From Dehalococcoidales bacterium (lineage in GTDB: Bacteria > Chloroflexota > Dehalococcoidia > Dehalococcoidales > UBA5760), in assembly GCA_028716225.1 (NCBI GenBank), contig JAQUQE010000002.1:62001-126000 (forward strand): a stretch of DNA of 64,000 nucleotides, in the 5' to 3' direction. Both the position numbers and the translations under genes were made by a program. Below, in pieces: positions 6,913-27,044 of the stretch. The notes beneath the pieces were generated by a model. It was not told the DNA's origin. It did not search any database and saw only the letters and a program-made list of their open reading frames with translations. Every line of letters starts with the position of its first letter. The first letter of the stretch is position 1.

Positions 6913-6914
6913 CC

Positions 6915-6985
6915 CGCCGGCGCCAGCACCATCTGTCGTTTATCCTACCTCAACTACCTCACCTTCCTTTATCCCCCTCTACTTT
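6915..6985. repeat. TA-operon downstream flank, copy B
   Basis: cgccagcaccatctgtcgtt, then tcctacctcaactacctcacc and tatccccctct. This matches 6183-6240 in the same order and orientation, but the second arm of the hairpin is missing. Confidence 0.6.
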
Positions 6986-7015
6986 CTTTGCACCCGCCCC
7001 CCTATCCGTTATAGA

Positions 7016-7726
7016 ATGGGCGAAGCGGAAATGACTATCGCCAGAGAACTGTTCGAACTGCAGGAAATAGACCTCGAGATCGAGTCCAACGAGCAGGCCG
7101 TCCGGGAGATGACGGCCCGGCTCGGGGAGAGTGAGGCGTTGCTACAGGCCAGAAGTGAGCTTGCCGCGGCCAAGGAGCACCTCGAGGAACAGGGCCGCCG
7201 CCAGCGCGACCTGGAGGGTGAAATAGCCGATACCGGAGCCAAGCTGGCACGCACCGAGGACCAGATGTACAGTGGGCGGACCACCAACCCCAAGGAGCTG
7301 ACCGGACTGCAGCAGGAAGCCGGCATCCTGAAAGCAAAGCGCAGCGACCTGGAGGACCGGGCAGTGGAGGTAATCGAGCAGACCGAGGCCGCCGCCGCTC
7401 GAACCGCCGACCTGACCGGCCGGCTGGCCAAACTGACCGCGGAGTGGCAGGCGGAGCAGCAGCAGCTTAAGAATGAGATAGCAGAGCGGGAACAGCGCCT
7501 GGCCGGTCTTACCGCGAAGCGGGCGTCGCTGGCCGCCGCTATCGAACCGGCCGCACTGGGGGTATACCACGATCTCAGGAAGCGCAGGGGGACGGCGGTG
7601 GCCGGAGTAGAGCAGGGCATCTGCCGCGGCTGCCGGATATCGCTCTCCAGCGCCCAGATGCAGCGGGTCAGGAGCGGCGGCCTCATCGAGTGTACCAGCT
7701 GCGGCCGCATCCTCTTCCTGCCCTGA
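7016..7726 (+). CDS. Coiled-coil protein with C-terminal C4 zinc ribbon (COG1579 type)
   Basis: 236 residues. Residues about 10-185 are almost all heptad-type coiled coil, rich in Glu, Ala, Leu and Arg. The C-terminus holds a zinc ribbon with two CxxC knuckles (GICRGCRI and IECTSCGRI). COG1579 proteins are thought to bind nucleic acid, with no defined reaction. A TATAGA -10-like box abuts the ATG at 7016 (with TTGCAC 16 bp further up), so the real start may be the ATG at 7031 (MTIARELFELQ). In other genomes this gene is often near RNase HI, which follows here at 8119. Confidence 0.8.
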   Translation: MGEAEMTIARELFELQEIDLEIESNEQAVREMTARLGESEALLQARSELAAAKEHLEEQGRRQRDLEGEIADTGAKLARTEDQMYSGRTTNPKELTGLQQEAGILKAKRSDLEDRAVEVIEQTEAAAARTADLTGRLAKLTAEWQAEQQQLKNEIAEREQRLAGLTAKRASLAAAIEPAALGVYHDLRKRRGTAVAGVEQGICRGCRISLSSAQMQRVRSGGLIECTSCGRILFLP

Positions 7727-7841
7727 GCAAGCGCAGCCCCTTCACAAAGAAACATCTCCCCACGGCAGGATGGGATAGATAGAAGAAAGGTACACCGCCT
7801 CGCCAGGGTGGTTCGCGAAATCACGGCAAGTTGAATAAAAA

Positions 7842-8010
7842 CCTCCTTCCCCGCGACAACGGGGAACTTTGTAATAGCACAGCAGATTATAATAATGTAG
7901 CCTTCCCTCACCACGGTAGGGGTATTACATTAGCAAAGCAGAACATAGTAATGTAGCTCCCCCTCCACAGCAGGGGGACTGCACCAGCACAGCAGATAAT
8001 AGTAATGTAG
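7842..8010. repeat. Three tandem ~55-bp hairpin units
   Basis: Units at 7842-7900, 7901-7956 and 7957-8010. Each begins with a C-rich/G-rich hairpin (for example TTCCCCG...CGGGGAA and CCCCCTCCACAGCAGGGGG) and ends with a conserved tail of the form agcanagcag-at-atagtaatgtag. A fourth hairpin starts at 8011 and runs into the dispersed repeat. Arms differ but stay complementary between units. With the next element this fills the 393-bp space 7727-8118, where no gene is seen. Confidence 0.7.
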
Positions 8011-8115
8011 CCTTTCCCCCGCCAAAGCGGGGGATTTGAAGGGGCGCAGCCCCTTCACAAATAAAAACTTTCCCCTTCCCCTAACTAAGGGGAAGGGGAC
8101 TAAGGGGATAGGGTC
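8011..8115. repeat. Dispersed palindromic repeat, modules C, B and A'
   Basis: CCCCCGCCAAAGCGGGGG hairpin, then AAGGGGCGCAGCCCCTT (module B), then CTTCCCCTAACTAAGGGGAAG (module A variant) and ggggactaaggggatagggt. The same order and closing text recur at 13330-13410 and 14530-14645. Confidence 0.75.
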
Positions 8116-8118
8116 ACC

Positions 8119-8514
8119 ATGAAAGTAATTATCCACGCCGACGGAGCCTCGCGGGGCAACCCCGGCCAGTCTGCCATCGGCGCCACCATCAAGGACACCG
8201 AAGGGCGGCTGCTGGCCGCTGTCTCGCAAAGGATCGGCCTTGCCACCAACAACCAGGCCGAATACCGCGCCGTTATCGCCGCCCTCGAGCAAGCTCTCAA
8301 GCTGGGCGCCGCCTCCGCCGAGGTGTACCTCGACTCGGAGCTGGTGGTCAAGCAGCTCAAGGGCAGCTACCGGGTGAAGAACGCCGCCCTCAAACCGCTT
8401 CATGACCGGGCCGTCGGGCTAGCCGGTGCGCTGCAAGGCTTCCGGGTCAGCCACCTGCCCCGCTGCCGCAACGCTGAGGCGGACGCGCTGGCCAACCGGG
8501 CCTTTTCCGGCTGA
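8119..8514 (+). CDS. Ribonuclease HI family protein
   Basis: 131 residues. The RNase H fold has all four catalytic acids in place: D8 (HADGASRGNPG), E48 (NNQAEYRA), D72 (VYLDSELV) and D122 (RNAEADALAN). It removes RNA from RNA-DNA hybrids during replication and repair. It is shorter than E. coli RNase HI and lacks a clear basic protrusion, as is common in the reverse-transcriptase-like RNase HI group. A second RNase H, RnhB, is encoded at 62524. The 300 bp after this gene hold the promoter and leader of the first S-layer-like gene. Confidence 0.9.
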   Translation: MKVIIHADGASRGNPGQSAIGATIKDTEGRLLAAVSQRIGLATNNQAEYRAVIAALEQALKLGAASAEVYLDSELVVKQLKGSYRVKNAALKPLHDRAVGLAGALQGFRVSHLPRCRNAEADALANRAFSG

Positions 8515-8564
8515 TCCAATATCATACTAAAGTATTATGCACAGGTAATTTCAGCGATAATGCC

Positions 8565-8592
8565 TTGACCTATTGACAAGCTGTGATATAAT
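8565..8592 (+). promoter_or_regulatory. Promoter of S-layer-like gene 1
   Basis: TATAAT at 8587-8592 preceded by TGTGA (extended -10), with TTGACC 16 bp upstream (8565-8570). A second TTGACA (8573-8578) lies only 8 bp from the -10. That 8-bp arrangement is repeated at 14659, 20298 and 22797. Confidence 0.65.
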
Positions 8593-8812
8593 GATAAATG
8601 AGTTGCTAGGCCAAGGAGGTGGTGCCATAGAGAGAGCCCGGAGGGATACTCCAGCGATCCATATTCCGAAGGGGGATGCCCTTGATATCAGGAGCATATC
8701 CGAAAACCAGAAAACATAGCCTTTCTCCACAGAGAAAAAAAGAGGTATATGTTGTTATATCTTTATCTGGAGAAAAGGTAATACTTAAAATTTAAGGAGA
8801 AAATATAGGTCG
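8593..8812 (+). promoter_or_regulatory. Conserved structured 5' leader, copy 1
   Basis: About 220 nt between promoter and ATG, similar to 14679-14893 and more distantly to 22817-23066. It contains AAGGAGGTG (8613-8621) followed by GTG-CCA-TAG, a CGGAG...CTCC hairpin, the block ATTCCGAAGGGGGA, and a long stem with arms TCTCCA/TGGAGA. The true ribosome site AAGGAG lies just before the gene. No known riboswitch class was recognised. Confidence 0.65.
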
Positions 8813-11800
8813 ATGAAAACTAAACTGATTTCTAAGATACTTGGCGTAGGACTGGCCATCGGTCTCGTCTTCTCGCTGGGCGCCGCCTTCGTGGCCGCTC
8901 CAGCCGCTTCTGCCGACGAGATGGAATGGGGCGCGGTCAACACGCCGAGTTGGGATGACCTGGTCATCCTGCCCAGCTCCGACATCCTCGACTACGCCGT
9001 CGGCGGCGACGAGGGCGACATCATCTACGCCGTCCTCGAACTGAACGCCGGCTGCACCGAGGTTGGCGTGGTAGTTGATGAAATAGACAATCCTAACTAT
9101 CAACCGGAAGGAGAGCCTCCAGCAGACCCAGAAGGAGATCCGGAATTTCTTGATGTCTGGAGCACCTGGGCCGTGGTCAAATCCGATGACGGCGGTGTCA
9201 CCTGGAGCGACATCACCGAGAATATCGTCGATGCCTCCAGCCTTCCCTTCGAGGCCGTTGACATCATGAGCCTGAACCTGGTGGCGGTGTCCCCAGATGA
9301 CGACGACTGGGTGGCCGTGGCCGGATACTTCGATGAGGATACTGTTGAATCAGGACTGGTTCCACATACCTATCACTACGCCAGTGATGAGGTCGTTCCC
9401 TTCGTAGTCGCCTCCGAGGACGGCGGCTCTAACTTCACCTTTGCTCACTGGGTAGTTGACGGTGACGAGAACATGCTCACTATCGCCGACATGGCCATCT
9501 CCATCGAGCGGGACGGCATCCACAACATCGCCCTGGCCGGCACCGCCACCGTTAACGGCGTGAATGAGGATGGAACATTTAACTTTGCGCCTGTCAATCC
9601 CGGTGTCGGTGCTCCCGGCGCCATCTTCCGCCTCGAGGCGGGAACCTGGCTCACCGGCGGCTGGGAGGACACCCGCTGCTACGACGGCTGGGACGGGGCC
9701 ACCGAGGACCCCTGCGACGAGCAGGACTGGTCGATCTACACCACCGGCATTGTCGCCGTTGACTTCTCGCCCAACTTCGACATGGACGACACCATCGTCG
9801 CCATGGGTGTGGGCGGACCGGACGGTGATCCGATGTGGTACCACTACCCCTATCTCATAGAAGGGACCTGGGATGGCGGCGGTGCCTGGAACGGCGAGGC
9901 CGGCTTCGGCAGCGCCCCGGTCCAGATAACCGACGAGGGGACTGACCTGATTACCTTCTACGCCCGCTACATGATGGGCTTCGCCCTGCCCGCTGACTTC
10001 GACGGACAGGACGGCAGCGCCAACAACATCTATCTCTACGTCAACGCCCTGCATATGACCAGCGAGGAGACCGGCGGCTTCGTCTTCATCTCCGAGGACT
10101 GCGACGACCTCTCCATGCGCTGCGGCCCCTCGGGAGACCCGCTGCTGGCCAGTATCGATGTCCACGGTGACGCCGACAGCTGCAAGGCAATGGTGGGCAC
10201 CCTGGGCGTGGATGTTGAGATTGACGATTTTCCACCAGGGGAAGAGGAATTCGAGGTATCCTGTACTGAGGCCTGCGTCGGCGTGGCGGTCTACCACACC
10301 GTAGAGCTCGACGACTGCTGCCCGGAGTGGGAGTGCGCCTGCAAGGACCCCTCGGGCCCCGGCATGGCGGTAGTGGCCTACACCGAAGACGGTGAGAAGG
10401 CCTTCGCCACCACCACCGGCAGCCAGACCTTCCTCTACGGCAGCTTCGATGCCAACCTCAACCTGGCAGATCTGAGCACCGGTATGTGGGGCTATGATTC
10501 CGATATCGTAGATGGTAGCTGGGCAAATTGGGCACTGCTCGTACCGGGTAATGCCCTTGACGAGTCCGCCTTCTCGGTGAGCCTCGATGACGCCGTCTCC
10601 TTCAACCAGATCGGCTTGATCGACACCGATATCGACTTCCTCTCCGACCTGGCGGTCTGCCCCGACTGCAGCGTGCTCTACCTCTCCACGATCAACGTGG
10701 CAATTGACGAAACCACAGCAAATGGGGCTCCTGGGGAGCCTTGTATTCCTTACTATTCAGGGGTCTACCCCTGCGTAGACTACACCTGCTGCTATCACGA
10801 ATCCGATAACCCCGGCTGGTTTGCCTGTGACTCCGTCTGGCGCAGCTACGACAACGGCGACACCTGGGAGAGGGTTAACCACGGCGACTGGACCGACGAC
10901 GCCACCGGCTGGCTGAGCGGCTCTGACTACTTCGAGCTTGGTAGAGATGCCCAGCAGCTGCTGCTGCGGCTGCCCTGCGACGAGGACACGGAATGCTGCA
11001 CCATCTATATGGGCATTCAGAACACCGAGGAGCTCTACTACAGCCGCGACTGCGGCCAGTGCTGGAACAAGGCGGTCAACCAGAAGCTGACCATCCAGGA
11101 CTTCGCCGTTGAGAGCGAGAACGTGGTCTACATCCTCGATGACTCCGGTCAGGTTTCCAAGTCCACCCAGTACGGACGACGCCCGTCTGACGGCGTCGAC
11201 ACCGGAGTTGATACCGGCCACACCATAACCTCCTGCTGCAACCAGGGCTTCGTGGTTGTCGGCGGCGCCGGTGACGAGCCGGTAGCCTGGTCCGATGACG
11301 GCGGCGAGACCTGGAACACCACCGATGACCTGCCCGGTGACGGCGATGCTGAAGTTCACGTCGCCTGCGACCCGGTCTGTGAGAACATCGTATACGCCGC
11401 TGTTGACGGTACGGGCATCTTCCGCACCGACATCAACGAAGGCGCCTGGGATGACCTTAATCCTATGGCGTTTGACTACACCGGCATCGTGATCGCCCGC
11501 GAGGGCACCCTCTACGCCTCCAGCGACAATATCATGGCCGACAAGAGCGTCTTCTGCGAGCCTTATTCCAAGGCGACTGGTGGTCCAAACGATAAAATTG
11601 TTACCGTAGAACGCTACTGTGATGGCGACGACTGCAAGGACTACGACATGTACAGCGGTGTCGCCCGTAACCTGACCCCCTGCGAGACCGACTGCTGCGG
11701 CACCGAGGACTGGGACTACCTCATCGCCGGCATGAGCCCGAGGGATTGGGACGTTGACGGTTGTGATGAAGGCGAGGACTTCGATCAGCAACCCACTGCC

Positions 11801-12706
11801 CTCAAGATCTGCGGCTGCCTGAGCCCGGACACCAACTCCGTACTCTGGGCCATCGACACCTACTTCTACGATGTTGTCGGTGAAGGCTGCGGCCTGCTCT
11901 GGAGCTACGAGGACTGTGCCGCCAAGCACGGTCCGGAACTGACCTCCCCTGAGGACGGGGCCATCCTGGCCTGTGACGTCTGTGACAGCTGCGTAAGCGC
12001 TGCCATGACCCTCAAGTGGGAGAGAATGTGCCTGGCCTGCAGCTACGACATCGAGATTATGGACGAGGACGGCAACGTCATTGCCGATTGGATCGATGAG
12101 GAGATTACCGGCGACCCGCCTACCTTCTACGTTGATGCAGGGTTGGAGTGCGGCCGCACCTACACCTGGCACGTTCGAGAGGCCAACACCGAGACCGACG
12201 AGTGCGTCCACAGCCCATGGTCCGAAACCTGGAGCTTCACCATCGAGGCCTCTTCGGCTAACGCGGTTCAGCTGATCGCCCCCGAACAGGGTGCGGTAGT
12301 TGCCCAGCGCACCGGAGTCGGCTTCTCCTGGAGCAGCGTCTACGACGCCACCACCTACAGCTTCGTCCTCTCCGCCAGCCCCGACCTCTCCGGCGCCCTG
12401 GCCAGTGCTGATGTTAGCGGTACCGCCTACGCCTACTCGGGCACCCTGGACTACGAGACCACCTACTACTGGCAGGTAACCGCCTGGAAGGACGGCACCA
12501 TGCTCTCCCAGAGCGATGTCGGCACCTTCGCCGTCGCTGCTGAGGAGTACATACCGCCCGAACCACAGCCCCAGGAACCTCCGGTTATCAACATCCCGCC
12601 CACCCAGCAGATAACCCCGACCTGGATCTACGCTGTGATCGGCATCGGCGCGGCGCTGATTGTAGTGGTAATCGTCCTGATTGTTCGGAGCAGGAGATCA
12701 TCCTAA
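8813..12706 (+). CDS. S-layer-like surface protein 1 with BNR/Asp-box repeats
   Basis: 1297 residues. Signal peptide 1-34 (MKTKLISK, AxA before DEMEW). A long beta-propeller-like body carries Asp-box motifs S-x-D-x-G-x-T-W, for example near residues 122 (KSDDGGVTW), 200 (SEDGGSNF), 676 (RSYDNGDTW) and 825 (WSDDGGETW). Many Cys pairs (DDCCPEWEC, DTECCTIY, DCGQCWNK) follow. Two FnIII-like units lie near 1040-1240, then a Pro-rich stalk and a membrane span with a RSRRSS tail. Dehalococcoides BNR/Asp-box proteins are annotated as S-layer proteins, so an envelope-coat role is inferred. Paralogs lie at 14894 and 23067. AAGGAG precedes the chosen ATG. Confidence 0.85.
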   Translation: MKTKLISKILGVGLAIGLVFSLGAAFVAAPAASADEMEWGAVNTPSWDDLVILPSSDILDYAVGGDEGDIIYAVLELNAGCTEVGVVVDEIDNPNYQPEGEPPADPEGDPEFLDVWSTWAVVKSDDGGVTWSDITENIVDASSLPFEAVDIMSLNLVAVSPDDDDWVAVAGYFDEDTVESGLVPHTYHYASDEVVPFVVASEDGGSNFTFAHWVVDGDENMLTIADMAISIERDGIHNIALAGTATVNGVNEDGTFNFAPVNPGVGAPGAIFRLEAGTWLTGGWEDTRCYDGWDGATEDPCDEQDWSIYTTGIVAVDFSPNFDMDDTIVAMGVGGPDGDPMWYHYPYLIEGTWDGGGAWNGEAGFGSAPVQITDEGTDLITFYARYMMGFALPADFDGQDGSANNIYLYVNALHMTSEETGGFVFISEDCDDLSMRCGPSGDPLLASIDVHGDADSCKAMVGTLGVDVEIDDFPPGEEEFEVSCTEACVGVAVYHTVELDDCCPEWECACKDPSGPGMAVVAYTEDGEKAFATTTGSQTFLYGSFDANLNLADLSTGMWGYDSDIVDGSWANWALLVPGNALDESAFSVSLDDAVSFNQIGLIDTDIDFLSDLAVCPDCSVLYLSTINVAIDETTANGAPGEPCIPYYSGVYPCVDYTCCYHESDNPGWFACDSVWRSYDNGDTWERVNHGDWTDDATGWLSGSDYFELGRDAQQLLLRLPCDEDTECCTIYMGIQNTEELYYSRDCGQCWNKAVNQKLTIQDFAVESENVVYILDDSGQVSKSTQYGRRPSDGVDTGVDTGHTITSCCNQGFVVVGGAGDEPVAWSDDGGETWNTTDDLPGDGDAEVHVACDPVCENIVYAAVDGTGIFRTDINEGAWDDLNPMAFDYTGIVIAREGTLYASSDNIMADKSVFCEPYSKATGGPNDKIVTVERYCDGDDCKDYDMYSGVARNLTPCETDCCGTEDWDYLIAGMSPRDWDVDGCDEGEDFDQQPTALKICGCLSPDTNSVLWAIDTYFYDVVGEGCGLLWSYEDCAAKHGPELTSPEDGAILACDVCDSCVSAAMTLKWERMCLACSYDIEIMDEDGNVIADWIDEEITGDPPTFYVDAGLECGRTYTWHVREANTETDECVHSPWSETWSFTIEASSANAVQLIAPEQGAVVAQRTGVGFSWSSVYDATTYSFVLSASPDLSGALASADVSGTAYAYSGTLDYETTYYWQVTAWKDGTMLSQSDVGTFAVAAEEYIPPEPQPQEPPVINIPPTQQITPTWIYAVIGIGAALIVVVIVLIVRSRRSS

Positions 12707-12743
12707 CTCCTAACCCTTCTCGCTTCGACTCTTAGAGACTGAG

Positions 12744-12778
12744 AGAGCCCCCCGGTATTCTCGGGGGGCTCTTCTTTA
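12744..12778 (+). terminator. Rho-independent terminator after S-layer-like gene 1
   Basis: Stem AGAGCCCCCCG / CGGGGGGCTCT with loop gtattct and a T-rich tail. Equivalent hairpins follow paralogs 2 and 3. Confidence 0.9.
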
Positions 12779-12782
12779 TTAG

Positions 12783-13436
12783 TTTTTCTTAGGTAACCTC
12801 TCCCCCTTGATCCCCATCTCCTTAATAAGGAGAGGGGGAATGGTTTTTCTTTAAGAGGGGCTGCGCCCCTCTTTGACACCCGCTTTTTACTTAAGGAAAG
12901 ACAAAGCCCATCATCATAAAACCTGATCCAAGAACCACTCCTGCCCCTCTTATACACCCTCTTTTTTACTTAAGGAAAGGCGAAGTTCGTCATCATAAAA
13001 CCGGCTCTTATGAACCGCTAAAGACCCTCTTATGAAACCTCCTTTTGCTCAAGGTTTACACCCACCCTTTACTCAGGGATTTAAGGGAAGGCAAAGCCTA
13101 TCTTTACAACACAAGAGGAGGAAACTTGCTCAGAGGGAAATCAGGGGTAGTTTACTGAAGCATAGCAAATTGAAGAAAAAACCAGGCTACGCCCCTCTTA
13201 CACACCATCATCAGGGCTATTTAAGAATACGCCTTAACGATAAAACTGCCTTTTAAGCGCCCCTCTTAGACACCCGCTTTTTACTTAAGGAAAACGAAGC
13301 CCCATCATTACAGAGTAGGGGGTAGTTTGAAGGGGCTGACGCCCCTTCACAAAAAAGAAATCTCCCCTTCCCCTTAGCAAGGGGAAGGGGATTAAGGGGA
13401 TAGGGTCCCAAATATCCAGTAGTTTATCAGTTTGCC
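12783..13436. repeat. Cluster of dispersed repeats
   Basis: This 650-bp stretch has no convincing gene. It holds module A (12795-12840), module B (12855-12873), then two or three imperfect direct copies built around acttaaggaaag...aagcccatcatcataaaacc (12890-13010). Next comes a block ggctatttaagaatacgcc (13214-13232) shared with 18727 and 22566, and a full B plus A' unit at 13335-13412. One 74-codon open frame at 13032 is made of repeat sequence and was not called. Confidence 0.7.
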
Positions 13437-14678: not shown

Positions 14679-14893
14679 CATAATGAGTTATTCTGTGCCG
14701 GAGGTGATGCCGTAGAGAAAGCCCGGAGGAATGCTCCAGCTACTCTTATTCCGAAGGGGGACGCTCCTGAAGGCGGGAGCACAGCGGAAAACCGGAAAAC
14801 ATAACCTTTTCTCCAATGAGAAATAGAGGTGTGTTTCTTGACATCTTTATCTGGAGAGAGGTAATACAAAATTTAAGGAGAAAATTTAGGTCG
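14679..14893 (+). promoter_or_regulatory. Conserved structured 5' leader, copy 2
   Basis: GGAGGTG is followed directly by ATG-CCG-TAG (14707-14715). Then CCCGGAGG...CTCCAGC, ATTCCGAAGGGGGA and a stem with arms TCTCCA (14813-14818) and TGGAGA (14853-14858) appear. Layout and many blocks are shared with copy 1. A longer frame upstream of the signal peptide (from 14816) runs through this leader and is not the real start. Confidence 0.65.
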
Positions 14894-17800
14894 ATGAAAA
14901 CCAAACTTATATCAAAGATTTTAGGCGTGGGACTGGCCCTCGGTATGGTCTTGTCGCTGGGCGCCGCCTTCGTGGCTGCTCCCGCGGCCCAGGCCGACGA
15001 GATGGAATGGGGCCCGGTCAACACGCCGAGCTGGGATGATATGTTCATCCTGCCCTCATCCGACATCCTCGACTACGCCGTCGGCGGCGACGAGGGCGAG
15101 ATCATCTACGCCGTCCTCGAGCTTTCCAGCGGCTGCACCGAGGTCGGCTGGCAGGATGAGGCCGATGTCTGGTACACCTATGCCTTGGTCAAGTCCGATG
15201 ATGGCGGCGTCACCTGGAGCGACATCACCGAGAACGTCGTCGAGGCCAGCAGCCTGCCCGATGTTGTTGTCCCGGGTCGCCATGATGACATCCTGTGTCT
15301 GAACTTTGTGGCACTGGCCCCCGATGACGAGGACTGGGTGGCCGTGGCCGGCTACCTCAATGACGGTAACATCAACAGGGGTCCCGGTACCCCATTCGTA
15401 GTCGCCTCAGAGGACGGCGGCGACAACTTCACCTACGCTCACCCGATTGAGGACGCCTCTGCTGGCACTGCCATGGACTTCATGATGGACATGGCCGTCT
15501 CACCGGCGGTGGGCAGCATCCACAACATCGCCCTGGCCGGTATCTCTCTTGAGGGTTATGCCATCCCACCGGGAAGGGGAGTAGTCTTCCGCCTCGAGGC
15601 GGGGACCTGGCTCACCGGAAGCTGGGTGGACACCCGGTTCTACCCGGGCTGGAACGACAGCACCTCTGACATTAACGACTGGGCTATCGAGATGTTCGGC
15701 GTAGTTGCCGTTGATTTCTCGCCCAACTTCGATATGGATGACACCATCGTCTGTATGTGTGTTCAGGATGCTGGTGTAGACATACCTACGTGCCCCTACA
15801 TCCAGGAGGGCACCTGGAGTGATGACATCGCCTGGAACGCCGAGGCCGGCTTCCCCGATGCCGTCCAGATTACCGATGAAGGTACCACCCTGATCACACT
15901 GGCCGAGATTAGAAGCATGGGCTTCGCTCTGCCCGCCGATTTCGACGGCGCCGAACCGGCCGACAACAACATCTACCTCTACGTTGATGCCATAGACCCC
16001 ATGGTAATGCCTCCTGTCATCAAGGGCTATGTCTTCATCTCTGAGGACGGCGCCCTGACCGGCCGCTGCGGCCCCTCGGGCGACCCGATACTGGCCAGCA
16101 TCGACGTCCACGGTGACGCCGACACCTGCAAGGCGATGGTCGGCGTCTATGCGGAACAGTTGGCCGGGGAACTGGAAGTGGCAGAACCGATACCATGCGA
16201 AGGCGTGGCGGTATACCACACCGTCGAGCTCGATGACTGCTGCCCGGAGTGGGAGTGTGCCTGCAAGGACCCCTCGGGGCCATTCATGGCGGTGGTCTGC
16301 TACACTCCCGACGGTGAGAAGGCATTCGCCTCCACCAGCGGCAGCTTCCAGTACCATCGCCTTTTCTACTATCCTCCCTATCCTACTGATGCCTGGGGCA
16401 ACCCGCTTGAAGAATCCGCCTTCTCGGTGAGCCTGGATGACGGTGTCTCCTTCAACCAGATAGGTCTAATCGATACCGATATCGATTTCCTCTCCGACCT
16501 GGCCGTCTGCCCGGACTGCAGCGTGATCTACCTCTCCACCATCAACTCGGCTGTATGTATAGACATAGGCTCAATTGACCCAGAAATTGTGTGTACGCCA
16601 CGCTACCCCTGCATATCAGATGATCGCGACTGTTGTGATACCATTGATGAAAATCCAGGCTGGTTCGCCTGCGACTCCGTCTGGCGCAGCTACGACAACG
16701 GCGACACCTGGGAGCGCGTCTACCACGGCGACTGGGCCGATTACGACATTATGGCAGACCCCGAAATTGCCCCCAACATCCTGCTCCGGCTGCCCTGCGA
16801 CGAGGATACGGAATGCTGCACCATCTACATGGGCATTCAGGGCACCGAGGATCTCTTCTACAGCCGCGACTGCGGCCAGTGCTGGAACAAGGCGGTCAAC
16901 CAGAAACTGACCATCCAGGACTTCGCCGTTGAGAGCGAGAACATCGTCTACATCCTCGACGAGAACGGACAGGTCTCTACCTCCACCCAGTACGGACGTC
17001 GCCCTTCCGACGGCGTCGACACCGGACTTGATACCGGCCACTCCATCGTTTCCTGCTGCAAGCAGGGCTGGGTTGTCGTCGGCGGCGCCGGTGACGAGCC
17101 GGTAGCCTGGTCCGAGGACGGCGGCGAGACCTGGGACGTTACCGACGACCTGCCCGGCGACGGCGATGCTGAAGTCCATGTCGCCTGCGACCCGGTCTGC
17201 GAGAATATCGTCTACGCCGCTATTGATAGCGAATCTGAGGGTGTTGGAGGCATCTACCGCACCGACCTCAGCGAAGGCGCCTGGGATGACCTAAACGCCA
17301 ATGATTATGACTACACCGGCGTCGTGGTCGCCCGCGAGGGCACCCTCTACGCCTCCAGCTACGACATTCTGGTCGAAGACTCGGATTGTCTCTGCGACCG
17401 TTTCGGAGAAGGTGATATTGGTAATGGGTACGACGAGTACAGCGGCGTGGCCCGCAACCTGACCCCCTGCGAGACCGACTGCTGCGGCACCGAAGACTGG
17501 GACTACCTGATTGCCGGGCTATCTCCTCAAATTTGGTGTGATTCCCCTAGCTGGCAATTAGAGGAGGGAGAATGGTTCGGTCCCCAGCCTTCATCACTGC
17601 GCATCTGCGGCTGCCTCAGTCCGGACACCAACTCCGTACTCTGGGCGATTGACTGGGATTTCTACGACGTCATCGGCGAGAACTGCGGCCTGCTCTGGAG
17701 TTACGAGGACTGCGCCGCCAAGCACGGCCCGGAACTGACCTCTCCTGAGGACGGGGCCATCCTGGCCTGCGACGTCTGCGGAGACTGTGTAAGCGCTGCC

Positions 17801-18541
17801 CTCACCTTCGAGTGGGAGCGGATGTGCCTCGCCTGCAGCTACGACATCGAGATTATGGACGAGGACGGCAACGTCATCGCCTCCATCGAGGAGCTCGAAC
17901 TCAGCGGCGACCCGCCCACACTCTACTGGAACGGTACTGAGAAATATGGCGAATGTACCGACGGCTACCAGTCACCTCTGGAGTGCGGCCGCACCTACAC
18001 CTGGCACGTTCGAGAGGCAAACACCGAGACCGACGAGTGCGTCCACAGCCCCTGGTCGGAGACCTGGAGCTTCACCATCGAGACCTCTTCGGCTAACGCG
18101 GTTCAGCTGATCGCCCCCGAACAGGGTGCGGTAGTTGCCCAACGCACCGGAGTCGGCTTCTCCTGGAGCAGCGTCTATGACGCCACCACCTACAGCTTCG
18201 TCCTCTCGGCAAGCCCCGACCTCTCCGGCGCCTTGGCTACTGCTGATGTTCCCGGTACCGCCTACTCCTACTCGGGCACCCTCGACTACGAGACCACCTA
18301 CTACTGGCAGGTAACCGCCTGGAAGGACGGCACCATGCTCTCCCAGAGCGATATCGGCACCTTTGCCGTCGCTGCTGAAGAGTACATACCGCCCGAACCA
18401 CAGCCAACACCGCCACCAGAAGTCAACATTCCTCCGGTCCAGAATGTAACCCCGACCTGGATGTATGTTGTGATTGCGATCGGCATTGCCCTGATCGTGG
18501 TGGTCATTGTCCTGATTGTTCGGACCAGGAGGCCATCCTAA
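14894..18541 (+). CDS. S-layer-like surface protein 2 with BNR/Asp-box repeats
   Basis: 1215 residues from the ATG at 14894, chosen because MKTKLISK matches paralog 1 and AAGGAG lies 13 nt upstream. Signal peptide 1-34. Asp-box motifs occur near residues 98 (KSDDGGVTW), 174 (SEDGGDNF) and further in (RSYDNGDTW, WSEDGGETW). The Cys-rich signatures (DDCCPEWEC, DCGQCWNK, ETDCCGTEDW) match paralog 1. Two FnIII-like units, a Pro-rich stalk and a C-terminal membrane span with tail RTRRPS complete it. Long stretches are nearly identical to paralog 1, interrupted by short divergent patches such as after GWQDEAD. Envelope-coat role inferred. Confidence 0.85.
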   Translation: MKTKLISKILGVGLALGMVLSLGAAFVAAPAAQADEMEWGPVNTPSWDDMFILPSSDILDYAVGGDEGEIIYAVLELSSGCTEVGWQDEADVWYTYALVKSDDGGVTWSDITENVVEASSLPDVVVPGRHDDILCLNFVALAPDDEDWVAVAGYLNDGNINRGPGTPFVVASEDGGDNFTYAHPIEDASAGTAMDFMMDMAVSPAVGSIHNIALAGISLEGYAIPPGRGVVFRLEAGTWLTGSWVDTRFYPGWNDSTSDINDWAIEMFGVVAVDFSPNFDMDDTIVCMCVQDAGVDIPTCPYIQEGTWSDDIAWNAEAGFPDAVQITDEGTTLITLAEIRSMGFALPADFDGAEPADNNIYLYVDAIDPMVMPPVIKGYVFISEDGALTGRCGPSGDPILASIDVHGDADTCKAMVGVYAEQLAGELEVAEPIPCEGVAVYHTVELDDCCPEWECACKDPSGPFMAVVCYTPDGEKAFASTSGSFQYHRLFYYPPYPTDAWGNPLEESAFSVSLDDGVSFNQIGLIDTDIDFLSDLAVCPDCSVIYLSTINSAVCIDIGSIDPEIVCTPRYPCISDDRDCCDTIDENPGWFACDSVWRSYDNGDTWERVYHGDWADYDIMADPEIAPNILLRLPCDEDTECCTIYMGIQGTEDLFYSRDCGQCWNKAVNQKLTIQDFAVESENIVYILDENGQVSTSTQYGRRPSDGVDTGLDTGHSIVSCCKQGWVVVGGAGDEPVAWSEDGGETWDVTDDLPGDGDAEVHVACDPVCENIVYAAIDSESEGVGGIYRTDLSEGAWDDLNANDYDYTGVVVAREGTLYASSYDILVEDSDCLCDRFGEGDIGNGYDEYSGVARNLTPCETDCCGTEDWDYLIAGLSPQIWCDSPSWQLEEGEWFGPQPSSLRICGCLSPDTNSVLWAIDWDFYDVIGENCGLLWSYEDCAAKHGPELTSPEDGAILACDVCGDCVSAALTFEWERMCLACSYDIEIMDEDGNVIASIEELELSGDPPTLYWNGTEKYGECTDGYQSPLECGRTYTWHVREANTETDECVHSPWSETWSFTIETSSANAVQLIAPEQGAVVAQRTGVGFSWSSVYDATTYSFVLSASPDLSGALATADVPGTAYSYSGTLDYETTYYWQVTAWKDGTMLSQSDIGTFAVAAEEYIPPEPQPTPPPEVNIPPVQNVTPTWMYVVIAIGIALIVVVIVLIVRTRRPS

Positions 18542-18975: not shown

Positions 18976-19221
18976 ATGGCGACAAAGACAACTTTGTCGG
19001 TTACTGTCGAGCCGGAGCTTAAGGCCATAGCACAGGAGATTGCCCGGGAGAACAACACTACTACCAGCGGACTGATATCCCGGTGCCTCGAAGAGCTGGC
19101 CAGCAGGCGCAAAGAAAAGCAAATGATCGACTACTATCAAACCATGGCCGCGGAGCATGAGGACTTCGCGCAAAAGTCTGCCGGTGTTATTCAAAGCATG
19201 GCATCTTCCTGGGGTGATTAG
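18976..19221 (+). CDS. Ribbon-helix-helix antitoxin of a MazEF-type pair
   Basis: 81 residues. The N-terminus KTTLSVTVEPELKAIAQEIA gives the beta strand and first helix of a ribbon-helix-helix DNA-binding fold, followed by NNTTTSGLISRCLEELASRR. The rest is a charged, probably flexible tail (MIDYYQTMAAEHEDFAQ) suited to toxin wrapping. A Shine-Dalgarno GAAGGAG stands 8 nt before ATG. mazF starts 5 nt after the stop. It should repress the strong promoter at 18904 together with the toxin. Confidence 0.8.
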   Translation: MATKTTLSVTVEPELKAIAQEIARENNTTTSGLISRCLEELASRRKEKQMIDYYQTMAAEHEDFAQKSAGVIQSMASSWGD

Positions 19222-19226
19222 CCGTT

Positions 19227-19565
19227 ATGACCAAATTGCTCGAGGTAAAGCGGGGTGATATCTACATGGTGGACTGGGGCGGAGAAATCGGCGAGCACCC
19301 CGCGCTAATCATACAGAATGACATCGGCAACCGGTACAGCAATTCTACTATCGTTGCTTACATCACGCACACAGTCGGCAAGGGGCTGCCGGTACTGGTG
19401 GAATTTAAGGACCATGAGGCCAGTTTGCCCCACGGCGGCTCAATCGATTTAGGCAGAATCATGACCATTCCCAAGACAATGCTGGGTAACAAAGTGGGGA
19501 GACTATCCTCGCCAAGAATGCTCGCAGTAAAAAAGGCAATCATGGATAGCCTGGGCATAGCCTGA
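19227..19565 (+). CDS. mazF: MazF/PemK-type endoribonuclease toxin
   Basis: 112 residues of one PemK/MazF SH3-like barrel. Recognisable parts are VKRGDIYMVDWGGEIGEHPA (family R-G-D-I), LIIQNDIGNRYSNSTIVAYI (family Q-N-D-x-x-N/S-x-x-S/T) and DLGRIMTIPKTML. The active-site Arg of the R-G-D loop and the Ser/Thr of the NSTIV strand are present. It cuts single-stranded mRNA at short sites, countered by the RHH antitoxin encoded just upstream. All of the expected length is present. Confidence 0.9.
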   Translation: MTKLLEVKRGDIYMVDWGGEIGEHPALIIQNDIGNRYSNSTIVAYITHTVGKGLPVLVEFKDHEASLPHGGSIDLGRIMTIPKTMLGNKVGRLSSPRMLAVKKAIMDSLGIA

Positions 19566-19689: not shown

Positions 19690-20157
19690 CTACTGCACCT
19701 TAAACGGTACACTCAAGGCTTTCTGCTCATCCAGATAGAAGACCACCTCATAATCTCCCTGGGGCCAGCCGCTCTCAGGGCGCATTATCGAGAGGGGAAT
19801 GTAACCGGTACCCTCCATGGTGGTACTCCAGGAACTGATCAGCAGACCCGCTTCGTCATCAGCACCGACGGGCAGGTAAAGCCACTCGGCACTTATCTCA
19901 ATATCAGGCGTGGCGTTGGAAACCTTAACCGAGCAGAAGATTACCCCGTCAGTGGCGGCAAAGGTATCGCCCGGCTCTACCGGCTGCCCTGTTTCCAGGT
20001 CTACCGACTTGCACATGGTAGCGTTGCTCAGCGAGGTTTTGCCGCCGCCAAAGCCGGGGAAGCTGATACCTTCGCTCTGACACCCAGCGATAGCAACCAT
20101 CATTACGGACATGAGTGCGCCAACGAGCACTGCCTTGACAACACTTTTTCTCATCAT
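19690..20157 (-). CDS. Putative lipoprotein of unknown function
   Basis: 155 residues from the ATG at 20157, preceded by GAGGGGG. A longer frame starting at 20211 would put 18 residues before a normal signal peptide and is less likely. The lipobox is VAIAGC, with the Cys about residue 25. The mature part is a single beta-rich domain (FAATDGVIFCSVKVSN, EISAEWLYLPVG, DYEVVFYLDEQKALSVPFKV). It resembles small Ig-like domains of bacterial surface lipoproteins. No enzyme motif. It faces the repeat-flanked mazF and is divergent from the cysteine-repeat protein at 20381. Confidence 0.7.
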   Translation of the reverse strand: MMRKSVVKAVLVGALMSVMMVAIAGCQSEGISFPGFGGGKTSLSNATMCKSVDLETGQPVEPGDTFAATDGVIFCSVKVSNATPDIEISAEWLYLPVGADDEAGLLISSWSTTMEGTGYIPLSIMRPESGWPQGDYEVVFYLDEQKALSVPFKVQ

Positions 20158-20297
20158 TAGCAATACCCCCTCTCGGCATGAAAATCGATGTGTAACGTAT
20201 TGAAGCACCATTTCTACCCGGCGTCAAGAGATTTTAGCTGTCTTTCGATACCGGAACAACCCCCTCCGGTATTAGCCATAAATAGGGAGAGTATGTC

Positions 20298-20317: not shown

Positions 20318-20380
20318 GATGGCATTCAAAAATAGGGAGCAAGGAACGATTCTCACTTCTTTCCCAAGGAGGTGATCGAA

Positions 20381-22429
20381 ATGACCAGAAAGGTGTTCCT
20401 GATACCCGCCATGGCAATGATTGTCGCCCTCATCGCTACCATCATCCCGGCAGACACGGCAACCGCCGGACTATTCTCTCCGGCACCGTCACCAGAACCG
20501 GTACCGGCACAGACGGAAGATGAAGAGGCCCTGCGGGAAGACATCCTGCTTGAGCTAAACCAGGCAAAACAGTATACCGACGACCAGGAAATTCTGGATT
20601 TTCTGGATGCCATCATCAACCGGGTGAGAAACCTGGAATGGGTTGAGTTCAGCGGTTCGGCGGAGGATGCCCTCGAGACCAAGTACACGATAGCCAAACT
20701 GATCGAGGAGCTGATCAACGAGCTGCCCATCGCGTCGGCGGGGACAACGGCGGCAACCGCAGCCGCCCCGTCGGACAACCCCCTCTACGAAGAGCTGGTC
20801 AGGATCCGGGCCAAGATAGAGAAGCTGATCGCCATGGAAACACCGCCCGAAGCGGTGCCGCCCCGCCCGCCGGAAATCGAACGCCCGCCGCATATGGAAC
20901 GGCAATTAGTATACTCGGCAAAATTCCTCTGCGGGCCGGCTTTCGGTGGAGAAGGAGTCCAGCGGGGTTCCTATTCCACGGCAATCAATGTCCATAACCC
21001 GCACAACGCAACCGTGATTCTACACAAGAAGGCGGTAATCGCCAACCGCGAGGACGACCCCAGGGGCACTATTTCCGCCTTCCGGAGAGTAGAGCTGGGC
21101 CCCGACGAAGCGATTGAGATAGACTGCGCGGATATCGTCGACCTGCTCGGCTCCCAGCAGCCTCCCACCCGGCGGTTTACGACACCGTCGCTGGCTACTA
21201 CCGGCCAGGAGGAAGAGACCGGTTCGGACCTGCCCACCCTTGATTTGACCGCGATCCAGCCGGTAACCTCTCTAATCAGTTTTATCAAGGGCTTCGTGGT
21301 CATCTACGCGACGGCGCCGCTGGATGTGGTCGCCGTCTATACCGCCAGCACACCGGTCGGATTCAGCCTCGACGTCGAGTATCTAAAGCCAAGCACGGTG
21401 ACCACACTTCAGATACCCCCACCGGAAACCGAGCCGGAATGCACACCCCCCTGTTTGTGCCTGACCAAGGAGGAGGCAGTCAAGCTGGGGTATACCGAGT
21501 GGTGTAACGGCGAGATAGAAGTCTGCGGCTATGACGAACAGCAGCGAGAGAAGTACTGCTTCACGAAGCCGACTGAAGAGCAATGTCCCGACGGGTGTGT
21601 TTGCTTAACCCAGGAAAAGGCTCGAGAGCTCGGTTATCCCATCTGCCCCGGGGAGACGGAGATCTGCGGCTACGACGCCCAGCAGAATGCGATGTACTGC
21701 TACCGGGCGACAACTGAAGAAGAGTGCCCCCAGGGATGCATCTGCATGACGCCGGCAGAGGCTGAGAAGCTCGGCCTGTCCCTGTGCCAGAACAGCAAGA
21801 TAGAGTGCGGCGTCGACGCCGCCGGAAACGTCCTCTACTGCTACGAAAGACCGGCTGAGACCGTCGATTGCCCCGATGAATGCGCCTGTTACACCGACGC
21901 CGAAGCCAAGAGGCTACAGCTATCCCGCTGCCCGGAAGAGACCGGGGTGTGCGGCTTCCGGGACGGTGAAGAGATGCACTGCTACCAGCTGCCCGAGGAA
22001 GAAGAGGAGGAGGAGTGTCCAACAGGGTGTACCTGCCTTACGGAGATGGAGGCCAAGCGGGGCAGCTACACGCTCTGCGGCGGTAAACGCATACCCTGTG
22101 AGTACGTACCCGGAGCCGCTCAGAAGTGGTGCTACGAGAGAGCGGTAGCGGCCAGGATCACCATCACTCCCGGTCAGGCGGCCAATCCCATCGGCACCGT
22201 GCATACCCTGATCATCATGGTCTATGATGCCTACGGTAACCCGATGGCCAACGCGGAGGTAACCGTCACCATCAGCGGCGTGAACAGCTACGCCTCGGAC
22301 ACCGTGGAAACCAACTCCAGCGGTGAAGCCGAGTTCGAGTATTCGGGGAAGAACCCCGGCAGCGATATTATCAAGGCCAGTATCGGCGGTATTTCGGCAA
22401 CAGCCTATAAGGAGTGGTACACCAGGTAG
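20381..22429 (+). CDS. Secreted protein with five cysteine-rich repeats and a C-terminal Ig-like domain
   Basis: 682 residues from the ATG at 20381. A GTG at 20372 lies inside the Shine-Dalgarno AAGGAGGTGATC and is not the start. Signal peptide about 1-29. A helical region (30-130) and a domain at about 175-345 (YSTAINVHNPHNATV, FIKGFVVIYATAPLDVVAVY) come first. Five repeats begin at C354, C402, C449, C497 and C546, each with C-P-x-G-C-x-C-L-T-x-x-E-A, then LGY/L...C, CGYD and YC, with seven cysteines. The last 90 residues look like a bacterial Big-1 Ig-like domain (GTVHTLIIMVYDAYGNPM). No membrane anchor follows, so it is probably released or wall-bound. Confidence 0.8.
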   Translation: MTRKVFLIPAMAMIVALIATIIPADTATAGLFSPAPSPEPVPAQTEDEEALREDILLELNQAKQYTDDQEILDFLDAIINRVRNLEWVEFSGSAEDALETKYTIAKLIEELINELPIASAGTTAATAAAPSDNPLYEELVRIRAKIEKLIAMETPPEAVPPRPPEIERPPHMERQLVYSAKFLCGPAFGGEGVQRGSYSTAINVHNPHNATVILHKKAVIANREDDPRGTISAFRRVELGPDEAIEIDCADIVDLLGSQQPPTRRFTTPSLATTGQEEETGSDLPTLDLTAIQPVTSLISFIKGFVVIYATAPLDVVAVYTASTPVGFSLDVEYLKPSTVTTLQIPPPETEPECTPPCLCLTKEEAVKLGYTEWCNGEIEVCGYDEQQREKYCFTKPTEEQCPDGCVCLTQEKARELGYPICPGETEICGYDAQQNAMYCYRATTEEECPQGCICMTPAEAEKLGLSLCQNSKIECGVDAAGNVLYCYERPAETVDCPDECACYTDAEAKRLQLSRCPEETGVCGFRDGEEMHCYQLPEEEEEEECPTGCTCLTEMEAKRGSYTLCGGKRIPCEYVPGAAQKWCYERAVAARITITPGQAANPIGTVHTLIIMVYDAYGNPMANAEVTVTISGVNSYASDTVETNSSGEAEFEYSGKNPGSDIIKASIGGISATAYKEWYTR

Positions 22430-22816: not shown

Positions 22817-23066
22817 TATTAACAAAAAACCGCTAATACTAAAGAGCTAGTACGAAAGACTGAAGACATAAGGAGGTGGTGCCGCGATAAACAGCCCCGA
22901 GGGATGCCCGGTTCAGCTTCACCCCGGAGGGAAGCGTACCCGGTTAAGGGAAAAATAGTATAAACTCCAGAAATAAAATAGCCTTATCTCCACAGAAAAG
23001 GGGATATGTGGTTATATTCCCTTTTATATGGAGAAAGTAATCCTGAATATTAAGGAGTACGAATCA
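22817..23066 (+). promoter_or_regulatory. Conserved structured 5' leader, copy 3 (divergent)
   Basis: AAGGAGGTG followed by GTG-CCG-CGA-TAA (22879-22890), then CCCCGAGGGATGCCCGG and a GGAGGGAAG block. The stem with arms TCTCCA (22987-22992) and TGGAGA (23030-23035) and the final AAGGAG before ATG are kept. The first 60 nt are unlike copies 1 and 2. Positions kept across all three copies point to an RNA-level function. Confidence 0.6.
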
Positions 23067-26000
23067 ATGAAAACTAAGCTATTATCCAAGATTTTAGCCG
23101 TAGGGCTGGCCATCGGTCTCGTCTTTGCCCTGGGCGCTGCCGTAATACCGGCCGGCGAAGCCCAGGCCGACGAGATGGAGTGGGGCGAGGTCAACACGCC
23201 GAGCTGGGAGGACAACGTCATTGCCCCCGGCACCGACATCTTCGACTACGCCGTAGGTCCCGATGGCGAGACCATCTACGCCACCGGCGCCATAACCTCG
23301 GCCAACGTCGAAGATGAGAGCATCCACGGGCTGACCGGCGGATTCGAAATCGACACCGGCGAGGTAACCATAACGCGGATATCGGACTACGCTGCCGAGA
23401 TCGAGGGCTGGCTGGAGGGCGACTCCTGCTACCTGATGGGCGATTTCACCATCTTTACCGCGATGGATATCTCCGGTGTCTCCGCCGCCGCCATCACCGG
23501 TGAAATCACCGTCGATCCCTACACCCTGTGCTACGATGAAGACGACCGGGCCGAGTTCAGCGGCATGCTCTACGACGACGGAGGCATGTTCACCGACAAT
23601 TTCTACTTCGAGATTACCGACGGCGAGCTGGATGTCCAAGACTGGATACTGGATGGCTACGTAAACTGGGTACAGTATGACGAACCGGGCGGCGAAGAGA
23701 TTGACAGTGGTACAGGCTTCGAATTAATGGGCATTTTCACCCAGCCCAGGGTCTGGAAGTCGACCGACGCCGGGGTGACCTGGGAAGACATCACCGCCAC
23801 CGTTCAGGACGCCGTCAACCTGCCCGGCCCCTTCTTTATGCTCTCCTACGGCGGCATAGCAGTCGCTCCCGATGACGAGAACTGGCTGGCGCTGGGCGGG
23901 CTAATATTCGACCCCGAGTTCTTGATGGAATACGGCCCCCCGCATGTCTTCCGACCGGCTGTGGTCGCCTCTGAGGACGGCGGAGACGAATTCAGCTTTG
24001 CCGGCTATATGGAGGACGGCAGCGAGGACAGCTATCTGGCGTTCCTCTACGATATCGACGTCTCCCCCGAGGTGGATAATATCCACAACATCGCCGTTGC
24101 CGGCATCGCCACTAACGCCGGTCACGACGACATACTCTGGGGCTCGGTCTACCGGCTCGAGGCGGGCACCTGGCTTTCGGGGGCCTGGGAGGACACCGCC
24201 TTCTACGACGGCTGGGATGACTGGGACGAAAGTGGTGAGGACTGGGATGACCGCCCCATCTACAGCATCGCGGTAGTCGATGTCGAGTTCTCTCCAAACT
24301 TCGATATGGACGACACCATCGTCTGTATGACCTCCAACCTGGATTTTACTAACGGTGTGGAGCCGCTGCCCTACCTTCAAGAAGGCATCTGGGAGAGCGG
24401 CGGCGCCTGGAACGGCAAGGCCGGATTCTCCGACGCCGTCCAGATAACCGATGAAGGCAACGACCTGTACACCCTGCCCGGCATAAAGAGCATGGGCACA
24501 GCGCTGCCCGACGACTTCGACGGCACCGACCCGGGCGCCAACAACATCTACCTATACGTTGACGCCTTCGACACCGTCACCGAGGTGGTCGGCGGCTACG
24601 TCTTCATCTGCGAGGACGGCGCCCTGACCGGACGCTGCGGTCCGTCGGGAGACCCGCTGCTGGCCAGCATCGATGTTTACGGCGATGCCGATACCTGCAA
24701 GGCGATGGTCGGCGTCTACTGCGACTGGGATAACGGATTAGACGAGGACTGGGGACCGGAAAGGTTCGACTGCTGCCAGGGCGTGGCCGTCTACCACACC
24801 GTTGAGCTCGACGACTGCTGCCCGGAGTGGGAAGCCGCCTGCAAGGACCCCTCGGGGCCATATATGGCAGTAGTACAGTACAGTCCCGACGGTGAGAAGG
24901 CATTTGCCGCCACCACCGGCGCTATGGACATAGTGTGGAGTGCCATATGGTGGGCCGTCACCGAGGGACCGATTGACATATTCAACTACATCGATGATGA
25001 AAGCAGAATCTGGGGCGGCTACTGCGACGAGTCCGCCTTCTCGGTAAGCCTGGACGACGGCGTCTCCTTCAACCAGATCGGCTTAATCGACACCGATATC
25101 GACCACCTCTCCGATGTTGCCGTCTGCCCCGACTGCAGCGTGATCTACCTCTCCACCGTGAACGAGATGGAAGACTGGGGACCTTATTACGACGGATACT
25201 GCGACGTGGGGCAGGTTTGCGAGTGCGACTCCATCTGGAGGAGCTACGATAACGGCGACACCTGGGAGCGCATCTATCACGGTGACTGGTTATTTAAAGA
25301 ATACATAGAGGATGACACCAATCTACTGCTCCGGTTACCCTGCGACGAACTCGAGGAGTGCTGCACCATCTACATGGGAATTCAGGGTACCCAGGAACTC
25401 TACTACAGCCGAGACTGCGGCCAGTGCTGGAACAAGGCAGTCAACCAGAAGCTGACCATCGAGGACTTCGCCGTGGAGAGCGAGAACATCGTCTACATCC
25501 TCGATGATGAAGGCTATGTCTCCACCTCGACACAGTACGGCCGGCGCCCGTCCGACGGGGTCGATACCGGAGTCGGCTCGGGCCACTCGATAACCTCCTG
25601 CTGCAAAGAGGGCTTCGTTATGGTCGGAGGTAATGGTGACGAGCCGGTGGCCTGGTCCGAGGACAGCGGCGAGACCTGGGAGCTTACCGATGACTTACCC
25701 GGAGATTCCGATGGCGGGGTTCACGTCGCCTGCGACCCCATTTGCGATAACATCATCTACGCTGCCGTAGCCGATAGTGATGCCGGGGTTGGCCTTATCT
25801 ATCGCAGCGATATCACCGATGGCTCATGGACCGACATGAACGCCATGCCCGCCGACTACGACGGCATCGCCATCGGCAGGAGTGACGGCACCCTCTACGC
25901 CGTAACCGACAGTATTCGAGTAGACTCCGACGAGGAGTGCCTCTGCGAGCGTTTCGATGAAGATGGTGATGAAGAGTACAGCGGCGTGGCCCGCAACCTG

Positions 26001-27044
26001 ACCCCCTGCGAGACCGACTGCTGCGGCACCGAGGACTGGGACTACCTGATCGCCGGGATTGAAGAAGATGAGGAAGACTTCGACATCGGGCCCAGCGCCC
26101 TCAAGATCTGCGGCTGTACTTCCATTGATACCAACTCCATACTCTGGGCAATCGACACCAATCATTATGAAGTATCCGACGCCTCCGAAGGCACCTTGTG
26201 GAGCTACGAGGACTGCGCCGCCAAGCGCGGCATTGTCCTGACCTCTCCTGAGGACGGGGCCATCGTATCCTGCGACGTCTGCGGAGACTGTGTAAGCGCT
26301 GCCCTCACCTTCGAGTGGGAGCGGATGTGCCTCGCCTGCAGCTACGACATCGAGATTATGGACGAGGACGGCAACGTCATCGCCGCTATAGAGGAACTGG
26401 AAATCAGCGGCGATCCGCCATCTCTCTACTGGGACGGTGAGGATTGCCCGAATGATTGTGCCATCGGCTGTCAGTCACCTCTGGAGTGCGGCCGCACCTA
26501 CACCTGGCACGTTCGAGAGGCCAACACCGAGACCGACGAGTGCGTCCACAGCCCCTGGTCGGAGACCTGGAGCTTCACCATCGAGGCCTCTTCGGCTAAC
26601 GCGGTCAAGCTGATCGCCCCCGAACAGGGTGCGGTAGTTGCCCAGCGCACCGGAGTCGGCTTCTCCTGGAGCAGCGTCTACGATGCCACCACCTACAGCT
26701 TCGTCCTCTCGGCAAGCCCCGACCTCTCCGGCGCCCTGGCCAGTGCTGATGTTCCCGGTACCGCCTACGCCTACTCGGGCACCCTGGACTACGAGACCAC
26801 CTACTACTGGCAGGTAACCGCCTGGAAGGACGGCACCATGCTCTCCCAGAGCGATGTCGGCACCTTCGCCGTCGCTGCCGAGGAGATTATTCCCGAGCCG
26901 GCACAGCCAACACCGCCACCGGAAGTCAACATTCCTCCGGTCCAGAATGTAACCCCGACCTGGATGTATGTTGTATTCGCTATCGGCATTGCCCTGATCG
27001 TGGTGGTCATCGTCCTGATTGTCCGGAGCAGGAGGCCTTCCTAA
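23067..27044 (+). CDS. S-layer-like surface protein 3 with BNR/Asp-box repeats
   Basis: 1325 residues from the ATG at 23067 (MKTKLLSK, as in the paralogs). Signal peptide 1-33. Compared with paralogs 1 and 2 it has an extra N-terminal beta-rich insert (about residues 70-225: GGFEIDTGEVTITRIS, AAEIEGWLEGDSCYLMG). The first Asp box then follows (WKSTDAGVTWEDI). Further Asp boxes, Cys motifs (DDCCPEWE, EECCTIY, DCGQCWNK), two FnIII-like units, a Pro-rich stalk and a membrane span with tail RSRRPS match the others. The last 300 residues are nearly identical to both paralogs at DNA level while the middle differs more. Confidence 0.85.
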   Translation: MKTKLLSKILAVGLAIGLVFALGAAVIPAGEAQADEMEWGEVNTPSWEDNVIAPGTDIFDYAVGPDGETIYATGAITSANVEDESIHGLTGGFEIDTGEVTITRISDYAAEIEGWLEGDSCYLMGDFTIFTAMDISGVSAAAITGEITVDPYTLCYDEDDRAEFSGMLYDDGGMFTDNFYFEITDGELDVQDWILDGYVNWVQYDEPGGEEIDSGTGFELMGIFTQPRVWKSTDAGVTWEDITATVQDAVNLPGPFFMLSYGGIAVAPDDENWLALGGLIFDPEFLMEYGPPHVFRPAVVASEDGGDEFSFAGYMEDGSEDSYLAFLYDIDVSPEVDNIHNIAVAGIATNAGHDDILWGSVYRLEAGTWLSGAWEDTAFYDGWDDWDESGEDWDDRPIYSIAVVDVEFSPNFDMDDTIVCMTSNLDFTNGVEPLPYLQEGIWESGGAWNGKAGFSDAVQITDEGNDLYTLPGIKSMGTALPDDFDGTDPGANNIYLYVDAFDTVTEVVGGYVFICEDGALTGRCGPSGDPLLASIDVYGDADTCKAMVGVYCDWDNGLDEDWGPERFDCCQGVAVYHTVELDDCCPEWEAACKDPSGPYMAVVQYSPDGEKAFAATTGAMDIVWSAIWWAVTEGPIDIFNYIDDESRIWGGYCDESAFSVSLDDGVSFNQIGLIDTDIDHLSDVAVCPDCSVIYLSTVNEMEDWGPYYDGYCDVGQVCECDSIWRSYDNGDTWERIYHGDWLFKEYIEDDTNLLLRLPCDELEECCTIYMGIQGTQELYYSRDCGQCWNKAVNQKLTIEDFAVESENIVYILDDEGYVSTSTQYGRRPSDGVDTGVGSGHSITSCCKEGFVMVGGNGDEPVAWSEDSGETWELTDDLPGDSDGGVHVACDPICDNIIYAAVADSDAGVGLIYRSDITDGSWTDMNAMPADYDGIAIGRSDGTLYAVTDSIRVDSDEECLCERFDEDGDEEYSGVARNLTPCETDCCGTEDWDYLIAGIEEDEEDFDIGPSALKICGCTSIDTNSILWAIDTNHYEVSDASEGTLWSYEDCAAKRGIVLTSPEDGAIVSCDVCGDCVSAALTFEWERMCLACSYDIEIMDEDGNVIAAIEELEISGDPPSLYWDGEDCPNDCAIGCQSPLECGRTYTWHVREANTETDECVHSPWSETWSFTIEASSANAVKLIAPEQGAVVAQRTGVGFSWSSVYDATTYSFVLSASPDLSGALASADVPGTAYAYSGTLDYETTYYWQVTAWKDGTMLSQSDVGTFAVAAEEIIPEPAQPTPPPEVNIPPVQNVTPTWMYVVFAIGIALIVVVIVLIVRSRRPS

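Follow-up and report, generated by a model that had tools for sequence, protein, structure and literature searches.

An open reading frame of a Dehalococcoidales bacterium encodes five consecutive cysteine-rich repeats, which raises the question of what kind of module they represent and what an array of them may do. The window considered here is the whole stretch of 64,000 nucleotides in which the gene lies. The reading favoured below, with slightly better than even confidence, is that the unit is a disulfide-stabilised extracellular mini-domain and that the array most likely serves as a surface stalk or adhesive region. The gene, its parts and its divergent neighbour are as follows:

19690..20211, minus strand: lipoprotein-like neighbour gene, divergent from the unit gene
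20366..20376, plus strand: Shine-Dalgarno-like AAGGAGGTGAT, 4 bases before the ATG at 20381 (upstream sequence)
20381..22429, plus strand: unit-bearing, predicted exported protein of 682 aa (ORF listing, translation)
20381..20467, plus strand: likely signal peptide, residues 1-29 (basic start and hydrophobic stretch, by eye)
20504..20839, plus strand: helical region, residues 42-153 (helices in the full-length model)
20906..21385, plus strand: conserved beta-rich domain, residues ~176-335, with C184 and C249 (ortholog alignment and model strands)
21440..21583, plus strand: unit 1 with linker, residues 354-401
21584..21724, plus strand: unit 2 with linker, residues 402-448 (structure predicted)
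21725..21868, plus strand: unit 3 with linker, residues 449-496
21869..22015, plus strand: unit 4 with EEEEEEE linker, residues 497-545
22016..22141, plus strand: unit 5, residues 546-587
22196..22402, plus strand: Big_1 Ig-like domain, residues 606-674 (Pfam PF02369, E 7.5e-11)

The window protein runs from the likely signal peptide through the helical region, the beta-rich domain and the five units to Big_1, and its 32 cysteines comprise C184, C249 and six in each unit. The C-terminal Big_1, the conserved N-terminal domain and the existence of relatives were all missing from the original prediction. Big_1 scores 42.4 bits against a gathering cut-off of 34.9, and a C-terminal Big_1 above cut-off is common to the window protein and the intimin/invasin surface proteins; unlike these, the window protein combines a single Big_1 with an unnamed N-terminal domain and cysteine units, and the other intimin/invasin models all stay below their cut-offs on it, Invasin_D3 among them. 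The conserved beta-rich domain (VYSAKFLCG ... VVAVYTAS) has no Pfam match and finds weaker matches in two more Chloroflexota genomes. The full-length model is of low confidence (pLDDT 68, pTM 0.28).

The translation bears out the predicted unit starts at C354, C402, C449, C497 and C546, spaced 48, 47, 48 and 49 residues apart, while the cysteine count per unit is six and not the seven first reported, in the pattern C-x3-C-x-C-x13/14-C-x6-C-x9/10-C. In the actual residue order this complete pattern is found five times; none of 20,000 shuffles of the region's residues contains it. Across the five units the six cysteines, T9 and A13 are invariant. The signature CPxGCxCLTxxEA, proposed for every unit, holds as a consensus but is exact in unit 5 only, unit 2 for its part showing QEKA; CGYD is present in units 1 and 2 and gives way to CGVD, CGFR and CEYV in the others (CE in unit 5), and YC is replaced by HC in unit 4 and WC in unit 5. 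Acidic EEEEEEE linkers had likewise been described, but this sequence stands only before unit 5, the other linkers being PTEEQ, TTEEE and PAETVD.

As a family, the unit was defined by a C-x3-C-x-C / C / C / C frame together with a helix motif between C3 and C4, and all five window units keep the cysteine frame. The six cysteines are also kept in 76 canonical units, rows that were themselves selected by the six-cysteine pattern; C-x3-C-x-C is fixed in them and the later spacing varies. In an unselected HMM list the cysteines are intact in 134 of 153 units, most of the remaining ones being cut or truncated. The conserved non-cysteine positions of the canonical units, namely P2, G4, a [TS]xx[ED] helix cap, A13 and aromatics beside C6, appear to be structural.

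That the repeat matches no named domain, as originally proposed, survives searches at several levels. No Pfam family matches the window protein's unit region at E≤10, and 54 units scanned singly at that threshold gave just two stray single-member matches, with the caveat that HMMER filters discard most very weak matches. The Kazal and EGF-like families, singled out beforehand as the known domains to be compared, have Pfam models that match neither the window protein nor the 54 units at E≤10. Units of both families and the unit described here are alike in comprising about 40-50 residues with six cysteines and in forming tandem arrays of variable copy number in exported proteins, but the latter has a cysteine spacing of its own (C-x3-C-x-C-x13-C-x6-C-x10-C) and shares no sequence or fold match with them. 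NCBIfam, queried with whole unit proteins, returned nothing for the unit, and a 54-row unit profile found no match among PDB sequences; weak matches of a 5-row profile to about 15 residues of unrelated proteins were gone with the larger profile.

Comparison of the unit model with PDB structures gave a best E of 3.8 with Foldseek and a best Z of 3.1 with VIA-align, a 45-residue model yielding weak statistics in both cases. The sole chain that VIA-align listed at Z≥2, 2qsg (Z 3.1), was judged a chance match. Beta-defensin (2nle and relatives), which has a small six-cysteine beta fold in common with the unit, is among the Foldseek matches, but at E 4.1 and a TM-score of 0.29 the similarity is not significant. 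The absence of a PDB fold match for a 45-residue model is no proof of a new fold. No description of the unit was found in the literature searched, a scope outside which most subscription papers lie.

Several features of relatives point to an extracellular setting: the archaeal PGF-CTERM motif in two archaeal unit proteins (L076 and L090), lipoprotein-like starts in two relatives, and the partner domains Big_5, CARDB, PEGA, papain and FG-GAP. The window protein differs from archaeal PGF-CTERM surface proteins in having no such tail (no match to the motif in Pfam or NCBIfam), and it has no recognisable cell anchor; its export would be directed by the signal peptide. On the favoured reading, each unit would be an independent extracellular mini-domain, some 42 residues long, composed of a beta strand, a short capped helix and a beta hairpin and held by internal disulfides, probably three, with C2-C4 among them. 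Five such units and their short, mostly acidic linkers would build a compact, presumably rod-shaped array between the N-terminal beta-rich domain and the C-terminal Big_1, most likely acting on the cell surface as a length-adjustable stalk or a multivalent adhesive region. The disulfide-rich stalk or surface fibre of the original prediction agrees with the signs of secretion, the partner domains, the tandem arrangement and the cysteine variants described here, the fibre itself being putative.

A point against the favoured reading is that the unit is also found as a single copy and in fusion with enzymes, an occurrence that suits a binding module as well as it suits a stalk. It is conceivable that the unit binds a ligand, such as a glycan, a peptide or a mineral surface, and thereby targets its partner domains, with tandem arrays providing avidity and a stalk being secondary. 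The occurrence of single units, the varying tandem copy number and the attachment of units to a papain-family protease that also carries CARDB and FG-GAP, as well as to transglutaminase-like regions in two archaeal proteins (recognised by eye, one with Pfam matches below cut-off), are all compatible with such a role; against it, no conserved surface patch was recognised and the conserved residues look structural, so that ligand binding as the primary function is a tentative possibility, its probability well short of even.

The mini-domain reading draws further on the predicted fold and on natural variants. AlphaFold, given 54 sequences, models one unit with a pLDDT of 90.1, placing strands at 7-11, 29-32 and 38-43 and a helix at 12-18, and a single unit modelled alone is thus confidently predicted to adopt a beta-alpha-beta-beta fold. 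Such a model had been suggested as a means of seeing disulfide pairing; it supplied the fold, and the evidence on disulfides came instead from units with four cysteines. In these, found in Archaeoglobales and Desulfobacterota in at least three sequence types, C2 and C4 are always missing together, C2 being replaced by W, Y or T and C4 by Y or L, or absent. The chance that three independent two-cysteine losses share one pair is about 0.004, their independence being the authors' judgement, and one Dehalococcoidia unit lacks C4 alone. The joint loss of C2 and C4 in natural variants supports a C2-C4 disulfide as a probable feature of the unit.

The same cysteines could instead act as thiolates that bind zinc, iron or another metal, the array storing, sensing or carrying it at the surface. 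The strong conservation of the cysteines is compatible with this, and C1, C3, C5 and C6, kept in the four-cysteine units, could form a four-thiolate site. Moreover, VKOR, DSBA and Thioredoxin_4 models find no match in the window's own genome (96% complete), a point against the disulfides of the favoured reading and for the metal-thiolate alternative. Metal binding had also been offered in the original prediction, but it gained no positive support: histidine accounts for 0.2% of the residues in units, none of the acidic residues is invariant, the paired loss of C2 and C4 with aromatic replacement suits a lost disulfide, and export together with Ig-like partner domains argues in the same direction, making metal binding unlikely. 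If the disulfides of the mini-domain are confirmed, the sharper question becomes how the carriers oxidise exported cysteines when searches for VKOR, DSBA and Thioredoxin_4 find none. Some exported proteins encoded in the window are cysteine-rich although the genome has no match to these three models. Small cysteine-rich repeats are often exported peptidase inhibitors, and in size, cysteine content and tandem layout the units are like inhibitor repeats generally. A papain-family domain is also present in one archaeal protein with the unit, but no inhibitor model or structure is matched and no exposed reactive loop is conserved, which leaves an inhibitory role very unlikely.

Homologs outside Chloroflexota, as the original prediction proposed to look for, were found in both archaea and Desulfobacterota. 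When 84,980 species, each represented by one genome, were scanned for the pattern, 23 stretches came up, a lower bound, as the exact signature was demanded. The archaeal carriers include Methanothrix/Methanosaeta, Methanomicrobiaceae, Methanoculleus, ANME-1, Archaeoglobales and Thermococci and Altiarchaeales MAGs, and the bacterial ones besides Dehalococcoidia include Deltaproteobacteria/Desulfobacteraceae (Desulfobacterota); most carriers are MAGs, and single taxonomic labels may be wrong. The unit was present in 9 of 197 genomes sampled from the phylum of a Methanothrix MAG, some already known from the scan, and in 7 of 59 genomes sampled from the class of an Archaeoglobales MAG. At one archaeal locus (L122) the unit-bearing protein of the papain family, which also has CARDB and FG-GAP repeats, lies at 6813-10079, and a neighbouring 816-aa protein at 10870-13317 has 90 cysteines and about ten units.

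Carried by at least two phyla of bacteria and several lineages of archaea, the six-cysteine module is missing from the domain library and structure searches made, and it looks like an overlooked surface module common to two domains of life, the naming of which would annotate a set of exported proteins from mostly uncultured anaerobes. Unit 2 of the window protein shares 58% identity with an ANME-1 unit, against 36-49% with its own sister units. It is tempting to see the unit as a mobile surface module that passes between archaea (methanogens, ANME-1, Archaeoglobales) and bacteria (Dehalococcoidia, Desulfobacterota) sharing anoxic habitats and that mediates cell-cell contact there, a scenario that is, on balance, quite unlikely. 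Phage and plasmid records gave matches at chance level only. Viral contigs contain no match to the N-terminal signature; two matches to the C-terminal signature were rejected, the readable one having an in-frame stop.

Within Dehalococcoidia, 12 of 393 sampled genomes matched, the window's own genome included; one of the twelve (G661, profile positions 6-35, E 3e-4) was judged to hold no true unit. A narrow 5-row profile run on a 400-genome sample of the phylum found the own genome alone (1/400), a figure that understates the spread, a 17-row profile having found more within the class. Two other genomes of the genus carry six units each; copy number is 5-6 in the genus and 3-8 across the class. 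In one further genome of the order, a lipoprotein-like protein combines a single unit with Big_5 domains. Across three species of the genus the first unit and the last correspond in position, and the inner units do not match up one-to-one. In two Dehalococcoidia proteins (L065:2344-4002 and L066:3255-4211) a single diverged unit precedes CC-containing repeats of another kind (GGCCRNGVVTPSTQAQC).

In the five genomes inspected for this (G667, G771, G818, G798 and G841), the unit gene has mutM/fpg, the glutamyl-tRNA synthetase gene or both next to it (loci L058, L060, L061, L063, L064 and L070), unlike in the window. These shared neighbours suggest vertical inheritance of the unit gene in those genomes and a different place for it in the window genome. 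In two other genomes of the genus, the unit gene likewise has a neighbour similar to the lipoprotein-like gene, which lies convergent and downstream there. Around the unit gene of the window are three paralogous large exported proteins (8813-12706, 14816-18541 and 23028-27044; 1241-1338 aa), each with 45-48 cysteines (3.4-3.9%), a strongly acidic composition and a hydrophobic C-terminal stretch, which look S-layer-like, as far as such features can suggest. CcdA- and TlpA-like ORFs, which the original prediction had mentioned as part of the setting, are indeed present at 50319-51011 and 51024-51575, but they lie 28 kb from the unit gene, the neighbourhood gives no link, and a functional connection was dropped on account of this distance. 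Upstream of the unit gene, at 18976-19565, two short consecutive ORFs resemble an antitoxin and MazF-type toxin pair.
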